Assembly: GCA_021801705.1 (NCBI GenBank)
Contig: JAJYXP010000029.1
Location: 1-64,000, forward strand
Length of the DNA: 64,000 nucleotides
Reading direction: 5' to 3'
From: Pseudomonadota bacterium
GTDB taxonomy: Bacteria; Pseudomonadota; Gammaproteobacteria; Burkholderiales; Sulfuricellaceae
The notes under the pieces were generated by a model, which was given only the letters and a program-made list of their open reading frames with translations, was not told the origin of the DNA and did no database searches. The position numbers and the translations under genes are program-made. Below are positions 12,981 through 61,678 of the stretch, piece after piece (the stretch's first letter is position 1; every line of letters begins with the position of its first letter).

Positions 12981-13212
12981 AGTGTAGTGCTTCGTAAATT
13001 GCGATACATGCATCACTGGACGCACCTCCCTCATCCCCATCCCTTCTCCCGAGGGGAGAAGGGAGTTTAAAGCCCCTCCGATCTAACAAGCGCCCCTTGC
13101 GTTTGCTCCTTCTCCCTCCGGGAGAAGGTTGGGATGAGGGAGGGTTGGGGTGAGGGAAACCCGCTTGCAGTTCTCTGCGGCTTAAGTTCCAAACAGAATG
13201 AAGCGCTACACT
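12981..13212. repeat. MITE-like element with terminal inverted repeats
   Basis: The ends AGTGTAGTGCTTCGT (12981) and ATGAAGCGCTACACT (to 13212) form imperfect inverted repeats. Inside are CTCATCCCCATCCCTTCTCC and the inverted GGAGAAGGTTGGGATGAGGG, plus a second TTGGGGTGAGGG tail. Related purine/pyrimidine palindromes occur inside the addB-like gene. The following stretch to 13323 holds only a GC-rich hairpin (GGCGTGTGCCGCC/GGCGGCACGC). Confidence 0.75.
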
Positions 13213-14794: not shown

Positions 14795-17700
14795 TCACTC
14801 CGGCAACTCGAATACCCCGCCGTTAGCGAACACCAGCACGGCACGCACCGGCTTGGAGGGGAATACTTCCCGCATTGCGGCGCGGTACTCCGCCATTTGC
14901 CCGAGATAGGGCGCGGCGCAGGCTGCCAGGTTGCCCTCCTCCGCCCGTTCGCCAGCCTTGAAATCCACTATCCAGACACTGTCCTCGAACTCGACCAGCC
15001 GGTCGAGGCGCCGGCTTTCTCCCGCCGCCGTATGGTAAGGCAGCTCCTTCCAGGCATGCAGGTAGCTTTCCGGATCGAAAAACCGTCGCAGATGAGGCGC
15101 CTGGGTAAGCCCCACGGCGTCGCGCCATAACGCGTCGAACTCGGCACCGTCCAGTTCCAGCCTGTCCCGCAGACTAGCCTTGTCGAGCACCGGCTCAGGC
15201 GGCGCGATCCATTCCAGCAGTGCGTGCAAGCGGATGCCGTGACGCTGTGCCGGGGTCTGGCGCTGGCTGATGCGTTTGCCGGTCGGAACGGCGGGTCCGG
15301 GGCATGCCAGGAATACGTCCGATGGCACGGCAGAAACATGCCTTTCCCCTCCATGCACGAGCGGCATCTGCCCGAGTTCGGCCGCCGCTCCCCGCTCCCC
15401 GCCCGCCAGCGCGCACAGGACTTTTCCGTGCCAGCTTTCCACTCCTCCGCCGCGTGCGGTCTGGCAGCCGCTTACGATCAGCGCCTGCCGGGCGCGGGTC
15501 ATCGCGACGTAGAGCAGGTTGAGGTCTTCGCGTGCCTCAAGCTGCGACTCGGCGTCGAAAACGGGCTGCCACTGCGCCGCGCGCTCGCCCTTGCCGCCGT
15601 ATAAAAAGAAACTCTGCGGCCGGGCGCTTTCCGGCGGCCAGTCCAGCACCGCCCGATAGCCGCGCTCGTTGCGCGGCGAGGCATGCGCATCCAGCAGCCA
15701 GACGATGGGTGCCTCCAGGCCCTTGGCGCCGTGGATGGTGAGGATGCGCACCGCGTCGCCGGCATCGCCGACGACACCCTCGTCGGGCGCCTCTTCCGCC
15801 CGTGCCCGGCGCAGTTGCTGAAGTTCGCTGATGAACTTGGGCAGGCTGGGATAACGGCCGCTGTCGATGTTCAGCGCCAGCTCCATGAAGGCGTGAAGGT
15901 TAGCCAGCACTGCACCGCGCATCGCCTCGGGTACTGCAGAGATGTAGCGCTGCGGCAGTTCGCCCTCGAAATAGATACGGTCGAGCAGGTCGTGCACCGG
16001 CAGGGTGTCGGTCAGGGTGAGCCAGCCCTGCAACAGGCCGCAGGCGCGTTGCAGCGCCGGGCTGGCTTCCTCCCTCCCGGCCACGGCGTGCAGGCGCGCC
16101 CACCAGGAACCGTCGGTCTCGAGCGCCAGCGCCATGAGATCGTCGTCGCTGCAGCCGAACAGGGGCGAGCGCAGCGCCTGGGCCAGGCACAAATCGGCGA
16201 AGGGGGTAATGAGAAAAGTCAGCAGGGCGATCAGGTCGCGACATTCCAGGGTTTCCAGCAAGCCGCCCTGGCGCGAGCTGACGTAGGGGATGCGGGCGGC
16301 GCGCAGGGCGCGTTCGTAGATTTCCAGGCGGGTGCGGCTGCGCTTCAGCAGCAGGATGTCGCGAAATTCCGCCGGCCTCGTTGCACCGTCTTCTCCGGCC
16401 ACCTGCCAGGTAGCCACGATAGTGCCGATCTTCTCCGCCAGTTGCTGCGCCTCCCGCTCGACGCGCCGGTCTTCCGCCTCCTCTAACGCCTCGGTCAGTG
16501 GATCGCGCAGGATCGGGACGGACGGCTGCACCTCGCCGGAAGCGGCCTCCTTGCTTTCATCCTCGGCCAGGGGCAAGGCCTCGACCCGGCCGGGCAAGCC
16601 GCCATGATGCGCTTCATGCCGTTCGAAGCCGGAGAAGCCCGGCTCTTTTTCGAACAGGCGGTTCACCGCCTCCAGCACCGGCGGCGCGCTGCGGCGGGAA
16701 ACGTTCTGCCGCAGCCGGTGCGCGCCGTAACCCCGTTCCAGAAAATCGGCTGCAATGCCGAACAGGCGCGCATCGGCGCGGCGGAAGCGGTAGATCGCCT
16801 GCTTCGGGTCGCCCACCAGGAACACGGTCGGCGCACTACCCGCGCCGGTCGAGGCATCAAGCCAGGAGCGCATGATCTGCCACTGCAGGGGATTGGTGTC
16901 CTGAAATTCGTCGAGCAGGATGTGCCGGTAGCGCGAATCGAGCTTGTATTGCATGTACTCGGCGTGCTCGGAGCGGTTGAGCAACTGGTGGACGCGCCAT
17001 TCGACATCGGTGAAATCCACCGTCTGCCGCTCCGCCTTGAGCTGCTGGTAGGCCGCGAGCAGCCCCGCGCCGCAGCGCAGGCCCGCGAGGTTGAGGCGGT
17101 AGGCGGCCTGGGCGGCGAGCTGCTGGTGCGCTTCCTGCATGCGGGCAGAGAGCATCCGGTGCAGATCGAGAAAGCGCGCCGCGCCCGCTTCGCCCACCCG
17201 CCCGGCCAGTGCCTTGCTGTATTCCCGCTTGCGCGGCTCGCCTTCGCCGGTCAGAAACACCGCGCTGAACGCCTCGAAATCGCGCCCGGCCAAAGCCTTG
17301 CGCAACTTTTCGGCGTGCTTGAGATCGGTGGCGGTTCCGCGTTCCAGCCAGCCGGCGAATTCCTCGGCATCGATTGCCAGCGCAGCATCGGCAAACAGAT
17401 CGGCCAGTATGTCCCGCTCCGGCTCCACGGCCAGATCGCGGCGCAGGGCATCGGCGGCGAAGGCCGCAGCATCGCCGGCGCCCTCGGTATACGCCCACCA
17501 CTCGGCACGCTTGGCGACGAAATCGAGCAGCAGGCTGCGGGTGTTGTGCAGGCCATGTTCGGCGAACAGGAAATCCAGCGCTTGGGCAGTTTCGGCGTTG
17601 CGGTCGGATTGCAGGTCTTCGGCAAAAAGCTGCCACGCTTCTTCCAGCAGGGCGGAAGTCTGGTCGAGCAGCCCCCAATCGCCCCCCGCGCCGCTCTCCA

Positions 17701-18118
17701 GCGGGGCGCGCTGGAGCAATTGCAGGAACCAGCCATGGAAGGTGTTGATGGTGATGCCGGGCTGGGCGGAAAGAAAGATCTCGAACAGGCTGCGGGCGCG
17801 GGGCAGCAGCGCTTCGACCTCGTGCTCCGGCACTGCCCGTTCGCGCAAAAACTTTCTTACCTCATCATCGGATTCCAGCGCCAGCAGCCGCAGCCAGTCG
17901 CGCAGGCGGGAAGCCATCTCCTGCGCCGCCTTGCGCGTGAAGGTGATGGCCAGGATTTCGGACGGCGCAGCCCCTGCCAGGAGAAGCCGCACGATGCGCG
18001 ACACCAGCAGCCAGGTCTTGCCGCTGCCGGCGCAGGCCTCGACCACCGCCGAAGCGGCGGGATTCAGCGCGGCACGGTTAATCGCACTTCCATCACGATT
18101 CAGCATGGCACGATCCAT
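14795..18118 (-). CDS. UvrD-type helicase/nuclease, AddA-like
   Basis: A 1107-residue superfamily 1A helicase. Visible motifs are Walker A ACAGSGKTWLLVSRIV (about residues 29-44), motif Ia ITFTRKAAQEM, motif II LLDEFQDTNPLQW, motif III FLVGDPKQAIYRFR, motif V TIHGAKGLEAPIV and motif VI LYVAMTRARQALIVSG. A C-terminal RecB-type nuclease follows, with DRLVEFEDSVWIVDFKAGE carrying the D...DFK residues. With the PD-(D/E)XK gene just upstream it forms an AddAB-type double-strand-break resection pair acting like RecBCD. The upstream partner lies 131 bp away across a repeat. Confidence 0.9.
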   Translation of the reverse strand: MDRAMLNRDGSAINRAALNPAASAVVEACAGSGKTWLLVSRIVRLLLAGAAPSEILAITFTRKAAQEMASRLRDWLRLLALESDDEVRKFLRERAVPEHEVEALLPRARSLFEIFLSAQPGITINTFHGWFLQLLQRAPLESGAGGDWGLLDQTSALLEEAWQLFAEDLQSDRNAETAQALDFLFAEHGLHNTRSLLLDFVAKRAEWWAYTEGAGDAAAFAADALRRDLAVEPERDILADLFADAALAIDAEEFAGWLERGTATDLKHAEKLRKALAGRDFEAFSAVFLTGEGEPRKREYSKALAGRVGEAGAARFLDLHRMLSARMQEAHQQLAAQAAYRLNLAGLRCGAGLLAAYQQLKAERQTVDFTDVEWRVHQLLNRSEHAEYMQYKLDSRYRHILLDEFQDTNPLQWQIMRSWLDASTGAGSAPTVFLVGDPKQAIYRFRRADARLFGIAADFLERGYGAHRLRQNVSRRSAPPVLEAVNRLFEKEPGFSGFERHEAHHGGLPGRVEALPLAEDESKEAASGEVQPSVPILRDPLTEALEEAEDRRVEREAQQLAEKIGTIVATWQVAGEDGATRPAEFRDILLLKRSRTRLEIYERALRAARIPYVSSRQGGLLETLECRDLIALLTFLITPFADLCLAQALRSPLFGCSDDDLMALALETDGSWWARLHAVAGREEASPALQRACGLLQGWLTLTDTLPVHDLLDRIYFEGELPQRYISAVPEAMRGAVLANLHAFMELALNIDSGRYPSLPKFISELQQLRRARAEEAPDEGVVGDAGDAVRILTIHGAKGLEAPIVWLLDAHASPRNERGYRAVLDWPPESARPQSFFLYGGKGERAAQWQPVFDAESQLEAREDLNLLYVAMTRARQALIVSGCQTARGGGVESWHGKVLCALAGGERGAAAELGQMPLVHGGERHVSAVPSDVFLACPGPAVPTGKRISQRQTPAQRHGIRLHALLEWIAPPEPVLDKASLRDRLELDGAEFDALWRDAVGLTQAPHLRRFFDPESYLHAWKELPYHTAAGESRRLDRLVEFEDSVWIVDFKAGERAEEGNLAACAAPYLGQMAEYRAAMREVFPSKPVRAVLVFANGGVFELPE

Positions 18119-18249: not shown

Positions 18250-21108
18250 TCATACCCCATCATGCCCACCCTGATAATCCTTGCGGCACAGCCCGCGCAT
18301 CTCGCACCAGGCGCAAGCGGCGGCGCCCCCCTGGGCGGGCAGCGCCGCGCCCCGGTAAATGGCGTTGAACAGGACGCGCAGGCGCTGCCCGGCGGCCACG
18401 CTCAGTGCATAAATTTCTTCCTGCGGCACAGGCTTGACGCTGCCATCCTCATCCACCGGCACGAATGCCGCTTCGACCACCGGCTCTTGCAGCAGCAGCG
18501 CATATACCGGCAACTGCATGTCCTCGCCCGGTGTTTCCAGCTTCTTTTTCAGCCCGGCGCGGCTCTGGGTCTTGTAATCCAGCACGGCGCAGGCGGGTTC
18601 CCCGTCGTCCGAGCGGGTGTCGACGCGGTCGATGCGGCCCTTCAGGGTCAAGCGGCGCCCCCCGTCCAGTTCCAGTTCCAGCGTGCGCCACAGCTCGCCG
18701 TCGTGCCAGCGCCAGCCTTCACGCTCCCGCGCCACCTGCCAGTCGAGATAGGCGGGAATGCGCGCATCCCAGCGCAGCGCCCAGGCGCGGGCAAGGTAAT
18801 CCGCTTCCAGCGCCTGGGCGAACTCTTCCCGGCTGACGTCGCGCAGGGCCTGTTCCGCCTCCGCACGGTCGCAGCCGCCGATAGCGGGGTAACGCTGATG
18901 GAAAAGGTGCAGGATGGCGTGCACGTGCTCGCCGTAATCCTTTTTTTCCAGTGCCTGTTGCACTTCATCCAGCTCGTTCAGGTGCAAGGCGTGGCGCGCA
19001 TAAAACTGGTACGGGCAAGCCACCAGGCTGTTGTAGCCGCTGGCGGAAAGGCTGGCCGGCACCAATTCCGGCGGCAGTGATGGCCTGGATGCCGCAAAAG
19101 CATTCCCTCCCCCTTCCAGGGGGAGGGTTAGGGTGGGGGTTGGAAGCGTGCCCTGCGCTGGCCACTCTACTTCCGCCGCCATTTCCCGGCGCGGCAGTTT
19201 TTCGCCATAGGCGAGCTCGTGAAAGGCTTCCAGCCGCTCTATCCACGGGCTCGCCAGATTGGGCTCGGCGTTTTTCTGCGCCTGCCAGGTGACCAGCATC
19301 GTGCCGCAGCCCGCCAGCAGCGCGGCAAAGTCCCGCTCCATCTGCTTCAGGTCCTGCTCGAAGGTCGGCAGCCCCAGTTGCGCCCGCACCGCCTGGTTGA
19401 AAAAGGCGTTTTCCCGTCCCTGCGGGGGAAAATGCGCGGCGTCGCCGCCGGCGACGATCACGCCTTCGAAGCGGCGCAGGCGGGTAGCGCCGAGGTGGGT
19501 GAACACCACCGTGCTGACAATGCCGGTATCGCGAAAGGTGGCGGTCTCGAGCTGGCCGTCGAGCCAGCGGCGCCATTCGCTCAGGGAGAACACCCCCTGA
19601 TCCTGGCCAAGCTCCCGCTGCAACCGGGCCAGCAACCGCAGCAACTGCTCCCCGGCCAAATCCTGCGCCAAACCCTGGCTCAGTCCGAGCACGTCCAGGC
19701 TTTCCAGCAGGCTGGAAAGCCATGCCGGCAAGGAACGGGCGCGCCTGCTGAATTTGATCTGCGCCTGCTCCAGCCGCTGCAGCAGGCCGAGCACTTCCGC
19801 CGCGCCTTCTTTCTGCGCCAGCGCGCTGTAATGGCGTAACCCCGATATGACGCTGTGGCGTCGCAGCAGTTGCTCCAGACCGTAGACCGCGCGTTTGCGC
19901 GCAGCCATGTCCCAGTCGGCGAAAATCAGCGGGGATTTCAGCAGGTCGAGCAAATCGCGATGATGGAACCCGCTCGCCATGGTATCCAGCCAGCGCATGA
20001 TGGCGGCGCTGGCCGCCACGGTGGAGAAGGTCCAGCCGGTTTCGTCCGCCACCAGGATCTGGCCGCGCTCCAGCAGGGCACGGGCGCGCCGCGCCACCAG
20101 GCGATCCTGGACGATCACCGCAATCGCGGTTTTTCCCGCCCGCAGCCATTCGCGGATCTTTCCGTCCACCGCCTGCGCCTCATCCTCCAGGCTGTTCGCC
20201 TCGAACAGGGTCAGGCGGCCGCTCAGGGGACTTTCCGGGCAGCGGCGGCGGAAATCCCCGGCTCGATCGCGCAGGCACGGCAGCAGGCCGGAACAAGCGT
20301 CGATCGAAACCAGCGCCTCTCTCGCTTGCTCCCTCTCCCGCAAGCGGGAGAGGGTTGGGGAGAGGGAAACGACCGGCGACTGCCAGGCTATTTGCACCAA
20401 CCGGCTCAAGTCATCGGCTGGAACCTCACCGCCGCAACCGAACAGGCGCACCGGCCGCTTCTCCCCGTAGCGGCGGAAAAAGTCCTGCTCCATCGGCGTC
20501 AGGCCGGAAAGTCCTACCGCATATAACGGCGCGGCAGCCGTATCCGCCAATCGCGCCAACCGCATATGGTAAGCGGTGACGCCGTCCACGCGGCCATCGC
20601 CCCCCCGGTTCATGGCATACCACAATTCGTGCACCAGACGCGCCTCGAATTGCAGCGGCGCGCCGGCCCGCGTCTGATAGGCCTGCTCCAGCCATGACAC
20701 GAATTCAGGATAGGAGGCAGGCAAGCTTGCACCCTGGCGGGCAATATCGTCGAACAGATCGAGCAGTTCCCGGCTGATATTCCATAAGTCGGCGTCGCCG
20801 AACCAGTGCCGGGCGCGCAAAGCCTGATACAGCAGCGACGCACGGCAACTGTCCGGGCTTGCGTCACGCTCAACCGCCACCTCCCCCGACCAATCCTCCA
20901 GGGTGGTCATTCTTGGCAGCAGCAATGCAGCGGCACCCGCCGCCTCGCACAGCGCAGCCGCCATCGAACCGGCAGCGTGGAAATTGGGCAGGAGTATGGT
21001 CAACCCGGCCAGGTTGGGCAGGCGCGCCCGCTCCAGCGCGACGATCTCCCGCGCGGCAGCGGCCGGCAAATCGAAATCCGGTACAACACTGGCCTGATGG
21101 TTCCGCAT
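18250..21108 (-). CDS. PD-(D/E)XK nuclease, AddB-like
   Basis: A 952-residue partner of the UvrD-like gene. The N-terminal two-thirds resemble an inactivated helicase (TILLPNFHAAGSMAAALCEAAG, LIVAGGDAAHFPPQGRENAF type segments). The C-terminus is a RecB-family nuclease: LKGRIDRVDT..CAVLDYKTQ supplies the catalytic Asp and D-Y-K residues. Cysteines in VACPYQFYARHAL and in CAWCEMRGLC match the four-cysteine iron-sulfur arrangement known for AddB and related nucleases. Two Pro/Leu/Arg-rich insertions are encoded by palindromic repeats lying in frame (see findings). It starts at an ATG without a strong ribosome-binding site. Confidence 0.85.
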   Translation of the reverse strand: MRNHQASVVPDFDLPAAAAREIVALERARLPNLAGLTILLPNFHAAGSMAAALCEAAGAAALLLPRMTTLEDWSGEVAVERDASPDSCRASLLYQALRARHWFGDADLWNISRELLDLFDDIARQGASLPASYPEFVSWLEQAYQTRAGAPLQFEARLVHELWYAMNRGGDGRVDGVTAYHMRLARLADTAAAPLYAVGLSGLTPMEQDFFRRYGEKRPVRLFGCGGEVPADDLSRLVQIAWQSPVVSLSPTLSRLREREQAREALVSIDACSGLLPCLRDRAGDFRRRCPESPLSGRLTLFEANSLEDEAQAVDGKIREWLRAGKTAIAVIVQDRLVARRARALLERGQILVADETGWTFSTVAASAAIMRWLDTMASGFHHRDLLDLLKSPLIFADWDMAARKRAVYGLEQLLRRHSVISGLRHYSALAQKEGAAEVLGLLQRLEQAQIKFSRRARSLPAWLSSLLESLDVLGLSQGLAQDLAGEQLLRLLARLQRELGQDQGVFSLSEWRRWLDGQLETATFRDTGIVSTVVFTHLGATRLRRFEGVIVAGGDAAHFPPQGRENAFFNQAVRAQLGLPTFEQDLKQMERDFAALLAGCGTMLVTWQAQKNAEPNLASPWIERLEAFHELAYGEKLPRREMAAEVEWPAQGTLPTPTLTLPLEGGGNAFAASRPSLPPELVPASLSASGYNSLVACPYQFYARHALHLNELDEVQQALEKKDYGEHVHAILHLFHQRYPAIGGCDRAEAEQALRDVSREEFAQALEADYLARAWALRWDARIPAYLDWQVAREREGWRWHDGELWRTLELELDGGRRLTLKGRIDRVDTRSDDGEPACAVLDYKTQSRAGLKKKLETPGEDMQLPVYALLLQEPVVEAAFVPVDEDGSVKPVPQEEIYALSVAAGQRLRVLFNAIYRGAALPAQGGAAACAWCEMRGLCRKDYQGGHDGV
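19101..19143. repeat. Palindromic repeat inside the addB-like gene, copy 1
   Basis: CCCTCCCCCTTCCAGGGGGAGGG is followed by TTAGGGTGGGGGTTGG. Read on the coding (minus) strand it gives LPTPTLTLPLEGGGNAF, in frame. Confidence 0.75.
20320..20371. repeat. Palindromic repeat inside the addB-like gene, copy 2
   Basis: CTCCCTCTCCCGCAAGCGGGAGAGGG is followed by TTGGGGAGAGGGAAACG. On the coding strand it gives VVSLSPTLSRLREREQA, in frame. Confidence 0.75.
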
Positions 21109-61602: not shown

Positions 61603-61678
61603 GTAGGGTGGGCACGTTTTTGTGCCCACGCGGAGAACCTTCGCTGACCGCGTGGGCACAAAAACGTGCCCACCCTAC
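61603..61678. repeat. Long perfect hairpin after cphA
   Basis: GTAGGGTGGGCACGTTTTTG plus TGCCCACGCGG pairs fully with CCGCGTGGGCACAAAAACGTG plus CCCACCCTAC (31-bp arms, 14-nt loop). It lacks a trailing T run. Half of it recurs at 9181-9211. It lies between convergent cphA and queE and could end both transcripts. Confidence 0.85.

Follow-up and report, generated by a model that had tools for sequence, protein, structure and literature searches.

In-frame palindromic repeats of the BoxC/PIT/TM_ECO class in an addB-like nuclease gene, and repeated occupation of AddB linkers by different repeat families within one genus

An addB-like nuclease gene from a bacterium related to Nitrosomonadales and Gallionellaceae carries two palindromic repeats that, judged by their sequence, both belong to the BoxC/PIT/TM_ECO class (hereafter TM) and that keep the reading frame of the gene. 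It is very probable that copies of the TM class have inserted into addB as part of a broad insertion over the genome, and that selection retains the copies that are in frame in flexible linkers. The gene lies in a stretch of 64,000 nt, called here the window, which belongs to a 2.84 Mb assembly of 79 contigs. The nearest named relative is FK1.bin35 (L080, 87% identical), and the other relatives found are mostly named Gallionellaceae, Gallionella, Nitrosomonadales or Nitrotoga.

The addB-like gene and its two inserts

The host gene, its nuclease domain and the parts of the two inserts are located as follows in the window.

18250..21108, minus strand: addB-like gene, host of inserts 1 and 2 (952-aa ORF; PF12705, TIGR02786, Foldseek 3u44_B)
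18283..19053, minus strand: PD-(D/E)XK nuclease domain of AddB (PF12705, residues 686-942, E 2.9e-34, coordinates converted)
20331..20366, minus strand: insert 1, palindrome together with a third arm rich in G (its plus-strand reading fits the TM_ECO/BoxC consensus without mismatch)
20303..20330, minus strand: insert 1, conserved tail of 28 nt (similar tails adjoin other copies in the genome)
19105..19143, minus strand: insert 2, TM-type palindrome (residues 656-668, PTPTLTLPLEGGG; one mismatch to the consensus)

The ORF list of the window shows no interruption of the addB-like frame over its 952 aa. The top AddB model for the encoded protein is TIGR02786 (E 1.4e-49), yet the match lies under the equivalog cut-off of this model. 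Sequence searches retrieved no solved AddB relative at E values up to 1; a fold search succeeded, the top Foldseek match and closest solved fold (3u44_B, E 3.0e-26) being AddB of the AddAB complex. Outside the linkers, dN/dS is 0.19, 0.22 and 0.22 in comparison with three congeners (L010, L011 and L013, respectively), the range over four comparisons being 0.15-0.22, and the catalytic and cysteine positions of the nuclease are retained. AddB is under purifying selection and, from these features, the gene looks functional. A preliminary description of this DNA had stated that repeats entered the gene without killing it, which these values and residues support at the level of sequence; it had also given the frame as preserved at both palindromes, as the intact ORF confirms, and had translated both correctly.

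Insertions of mobile DNA often go along with gene decay, and this general association is the argument for regarding addB as a decaying gene whose inserts mark a pseudogene. The long open frame, the complete nuclease domain, the dN/dS values and the intact catalytic and cysteine positions make such decay very improbable.

Read on the plus strand, insert 1 has the form CCCTCTCCC N6 GGGAGAGGG N3 GGGAGAGGG. The consensus of BoxC/PIT/TM_ECO in the accessible text of Holder et al. 2015 (PMC4666352) is CCCTCNCCC N3-6 GGGNGAGGG N3 GGGNGAGGG, from which insert 1 differs by 0 mismatches and insert 2 by one. Together with its tail, insert 1 amounts to 64 nt (residues 248-269) and matches a 64-nt repeat unit of the genome end to end at 88%; the extent initially proposed for it was too short, as it left out the conserved tail. 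Insert 2 sits in the linker immediately ahead of the PD-(D/E)XK nuclease domain, and its variant resembles, by eye, genome copies on contigs C9 and C77. In computed secondary structures, insert 2 forms the hairpin, and insert 1 plus tail has another fold whose energy is lower. The 36-nt core is open in all six frames; shuffles of the same composition are equally open, so the idea that the repeat is unusually open for coding was dismissed.

An AlphaFold model of AddB (37 sequences, mean pLDDT 82.3) has pLDDT under 50 in segments 1-9, 247-258, 264-273, 645-676, 710-721 and 925-952. Insert 1 is inside these segments except for residues 259-263, and insert 2 lies entirely within segment 645-676. 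Modelling, which had been proposed as a way to see whether the inserts fall in loops, thus places them in, or mostly in, low-confidence stretches and, low pLDDT being a mere proxy for disorder, both are probably in, or mostly in, disordered linkers.

Evidence for insertion from orthologues

The AddB of the window (REF) was aligned with 26 orthologues and with 13 more from named records; L036, L037 and L038 (fragments or remote) and L089 (below the length filter) were left out, and most comparison genomes are multi-contig assemblies. REF has extra residues at both sites, including at site 1 a block of 28 residues that is absent from most relatives. Both segments are insertions, as orthologues from 11 congeners among those aligned attest and as had been suspected, the sites of congeners being empty or otherwise filled. 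The DNA identity of addB between REF and its sister G009, calculated over 120 nt at a time, is 0.87-0.99 save for two dips (0.55 and 0.42), which coincide with the two insert sites.

Insert 2 is common to REF and L011, with similar flanks, and may therefore have been acquired by recombination or inherited, not newly inserted. It was also observed that REF is closer to L011 than to sister G009 over nt ~600-840 and 1861-2040 of addB, which suggests either that lineages have exchanged linker regions or that G009 has undergone a loss.

The repeat family and its spread

In the same genome, the core pattern AACCCTCYCCCN{3,25}GGGRGAGGG has 29 occurrences (0 in the reversed control), and the 64-nt consensus unit has at least 57 BLAST matches (40 of 84 candidates scored). 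Among the matches listed, pattern and BLAST matches merge into 67 copies at 51 sites. A search for the TM motif with at most two mismatches gives 67 places, 43 of them with 0 mismatches and 17 with one. Of 397 genomes examined in the phylum, 76 contain the core CCCTCWCCCYAACCCTCYCCC (reversed control, 0), and all 12 genomes of the genus contain a shorter repeat head. No GTAG or CGTC tag shared by the 29 copies was seen by eye, L049 alone having GTAG just ahead of the head.

The window also contains an intergenic element made of related repeats.

12981..13212, no strand assigned: intergenic element (two related hairpins in inverted orientation; complete or partial copies elsewhere in the genome)

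The preliminary description related the addB palindromes to the core of this element, and the relationship is borne out by a repeat head at 13140-13156 (minus strand) and by its two related hairpins. The element is MITE-like, with ends that by eye resemble an inverted repeat; three further contigs carry relatives of nearly full length, and pieces of its ends occur at other places. Farther along the window, positions 61603-61678 hold a copy of a GTAGGGTG-type palindrome family, which has 62 matches in the genome.

Since linkers are frequently of low complexity, the two segments might be ordinary Pro/Gly-rich linkers that look like repeats by chance. They match, as DNA, a dispersed unit of 36 to 64 nt for which the pattern searches gave 0 control hits, and sister G009 differs at exactly these sites, so that a chance resemblance is barely credible.

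In-frame copies in other genes

A codon-usage model trained on the window was used for a survey of the whole genome, sites being taken as in frame when the frame is open and the flanks are coding on both sides. In total, 15 of the 51 sites, spread over 13 ORFs, are in frame in coding sequence. The search for the same repeat in frame in other genes, advised at the outset, therefore adds 12 ORFs to addB and its two sites. By family match, these ORFs encode MetRS, Mpl, heptosyltransferase II, GatB, LeuRS, MurF, HypF, an ArnT-like glycosyltransferase (under the model cut-off), an Eco57I-type methylase, an MmeI-type methylase and a DEAD/DEAH helicase with two sites, which we take to resemble HrpA; one ORF has no family match. 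None of the 11 matched ORFs belongs to a repair family. Repair is not singled out among the hosts of this genome, which corrects the preliminary description, and a special targeting of repair genes in this genome is not supported.

Alignments place the MurF insert between positions 195 and 196 of the E. coli enzyme (1gg4), the GatB insert between 335 and 340 of 4wj3 and the LeuRS insert between 235 and 252 of 6q89. The LeuRS linker is empty in sister G009 and holds a separate TM-type copy in L170 (in this set, remote L176 falls under the filter, L173 and L177 are fragmentary, and several of the loci are one gene shown twice). The insert of the MmeI-type protein separates the target-recognition domain from the C-terminal one; of the two helicase inserts, one separates the DEAD domain from Helicase_C and the other falls within DUF3418. 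The 1294-aa ORF of this helicase on contig C72 (L064, L101) shows, besides the two TM sites, more repeat-like peptides by eye near residue 890 and beyond. On contig C3 (9110-9146), a TM copy is in frame ~20 nt from the end of a 378-aa ORF and may code for a C-terminal extension.

A test of 240-nt flanks, which relies on an author-made codon-usage model and on thresholds set post hoc, is passed by 12 of the 15 in-frame sites and failed by three, and none of the remaining 36 sites has two open coding flanks. If one insertion in three were in frame, 12 of 12 would be expected by chance with a probability of about 2e-6 (thresholds chosen after seeing the data). Some of the 36 other sites have a high-scoring flank that contains a stop. 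At the 12 of these 36 sites with the strongest flanks, no split gene was found, the repeats lying between different ORFs or at ORF ends. One of them presumably lies between the ORFs for ATP synthase gamma- and beta-like subunits. Four of the six frame classes are used, unevenly: of the 14 motif places that could be assigned, 11 are in sense frames (5, 5 and 1) and the other 3 share an antisense frame, and three of the 15 sites gave no frame.

Repeated occupation of AddB and AddA linkers in the genus

By eye, site 2 harbors five palindrome families in six of the 12 genomes of the genus: the TM repeat in REF and L011, a GTAGGGTGCG palindrome in L010, GTAGGAGCGGGC in L013, GTAGGGTGAGCACC in L017 and GTGGGTCAGGCTTCAGCC in L024, L019 being scored as having no palindrome though a worn one may exist. 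Several of the non-TM palindromes start with GTAG. TM-type copies occupy site 1 in four of the 12 genomes (REF, L012, L014 and L017, the last of which starts at a contig end, inside site 1), and L024 has a long extra stretch upstream of site 1. On an AddB tree of 20 rows, several inner branches of which are weak, at least six changes are needed at site 2 and at least four at site 1.

These palindromes belong to families that are themselves repeated, with the proviso that one palindrome can match on both strands and hence count double: the L017 type has at least 81 matches in G004, where 40 of 79 candidates were scored, and 62 in the genome of the window, the L013 type 43 in G002 and 46 in G004, and the L024 type, at up to two mismatches, 107 in G001 (control, 0), and of the L010 type, half-elements alone recur, with 10 matches each in G003 and G006. 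In G002, the L013 family is present once more, at 97% identity, farther upstream within the same addB gene. The outgroup L029, from a sister genus, has CCCTC-type palindromes that keep the frame elsewhere in AddB, at two positions close to REF residues 289 and 747; one of these palindromes is inside the nuclease-domain region.

The partner subunit gives a comparable picture.

14795..18118, minus strand: addA-like gene, next after addB (profile matches; no visible insert here, inserts in congeners)

Comparison of AddA from 10 congeners (rows L156, L159 and L164 being incomplete) reveals in-frame inserts in several of them: after REF residue 280 in L155, L157 and L161, after residue 517 in L156 (with a listed match to the L013 family), after residue 664 in L160 and in the region after residue 906 in L156, L158, L161 and L163. 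Those of L155, L157, L156 and L158 at 280 and 906 are of TM type by eye. In L161 (AddA of G004), a stretch coding for VGCQKLRALHH-like peptides is in frame at two places.

Possible source of mobility

Eleven Y1-transposase loci were found in the genome of the window. At none of them does a TM repeat appear within 700 bp (for one, situated at a contig end, a single side is visible), and mobilization of the TM repeat by RAYTs is therefore not supported. GTAG palindromes are present on both sides of four of the 11 loci, and three of these (GTAGGAGC, GTAGGTCGGGCTTCAGCC and GTAGGGTGGGCAC) resemble types found at AddB linkers of congeners. In the accessible text of Holder et al., likewise, no mobility genes were found beside the TM motif (PMC4666352).

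A model for the retention of the inserts

The following model can be drawn. Copies of BoxC/PIT/TM_ECO, which would be mobile, insert widely, aiming at genes being improbable. A copy would survive inside a gene when its net length keeps the frame, when it has no stop in the frame used and when it falls in a flexible region of the protein. As the AddB linkers would be flexible, successive repeat families would keep landing or being retained there, including GTAG-type palindromes like those beside transposase genes of the genome. The inserts would be translated in the cell and be neutral, the peptide that derives from the repeat having no sequence-specific role.

Alternatively, the inserts might be selected because they tune AddAB, either through the length of the helicase-nuclease tether or through ribosome pausing at an interdomain RNA hairpin. 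Linker inserts recur in both AddA and AddB, and an insert lies ahead of each nuclease domain (before residue 686 in AddB; after residue 906 in AddA, where PF12705 starts from residue 952). Furthermore, two Xanthomonas species have different REPs at nearly the same place in recB, according to the consulted text of PMC3733652, which also includes the speculation that REPs in repair genes give rise to mutator strains. However, repeat families and frames vary, six of the 12 genomes have no palindrome at site 2, insert-free congeners retain the gene, and the other in-frame ORFs of the genome are non-repair (11 of 12) or unmatched (1 of 12). Such tuning is considered unlikely, and broad insertion with retention in flexible linkers is preferred.

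Relation to known palindromic elements

The principle of in-frame palindromes is already known, from REPs in 2013 and from Rickettsia earlier. The intrastrand-triplex motif TM_ECO was earlier named BoxC and PIT, and 3610 copies are reported from 262 proteobacterial genomes in the available text of PMC4666352. Like these elements, the repeats described here are wide in Proteobacteria, form inverted pairs and show no association with a transposase. One hundred CCCTCTCCC..GGGAGAGGG palindromes are mentioned for Enterobacter sp. 638 in the consulted part of PMC2869309. In E. coli MG1655, the TM motif is stated by Holder et al. to be always intergenic (PMC4666352), unlike the 15 of 51 sites found here in coding sequence; an intergenic location is treated as a description of the class, not as its defining feature.

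Intragenic GTAG and CGTC REPs, many of them in repair genes including recBCD, are described from several bacteria in the main text of PMC3733652, where a linker explanation and the mutator explanation are both offered and where neither CCCTC nor addB appears. The TM repeats resemble these REPs as short palindromes inside ORFs of many genes; they differ in lacking a shared GTAG or CGTC tag, and orthologues from 12 genomes of one genus provide here a record of serial insertion. Other palindromes of AddB linkers are GTAG-like, as are those that flank four of the 11 Y1 loci, and recall REPIN/RAYT systems (PMC3116915), unlike the TM repeat, which was seen beside none of these loci.

The parallel drawn in the preliminary description with Rickettsia palindromic elements holds for palindromic DNA in frame within conserved proteins (PMC2229807, PMC3733652), but not for the sequence class, which is BoxC/PIT/TM. 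According to the part of PMC2229807 consulted, Rickettsia elements are 105-146 bp long, in comparison with 36-64 nt for the unit of the Nitrosomonadales/Gallionellaceae-related host, and one is tolerated in a tested enzyme. Among the best-ranked 10 to 20 papers of each search in a literature made up mostly of openly accessible papers, at the level of their main texts, none was seen to report BoxC/PIT/TM elements in coding sequence or repeats in addB. As far as these searches show, two things are new: the triplex-motif family as protein-coding insertions, and the recurrent presence of different repeat families at the same AddAB linkers.

Implications

A broader proposal is that palindromic mobile repeats favor the linkers of AddAB/RecBCD-type nucleases, nuclease tether included, as landing places under functional selection, and that the repeats would tune the processing of double-strand breaks. 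This is regarded as quite unlikely; if true, repeat structures, which can stall replication, would make work for the very AddAB/RecBCD-type enzyme that hosts them.

With these data, BoxC/TM triplex repeats join the Rickettsia elements and the GTAG/CGTC REPs among the palindromes embedded in proteins, and the inserts give proteins such as LeuRS and MetRS repeat-derived stretches. Two linkers of one protein, five repeat families and 12 sister genomes, with some congeners free of inserts, constitute a natural experiment. Owing to this record of serial insertion in sister genomes, it is now directly testable whether such repeats target repair genes or are merely tolerated by them, as was asked in 2013.
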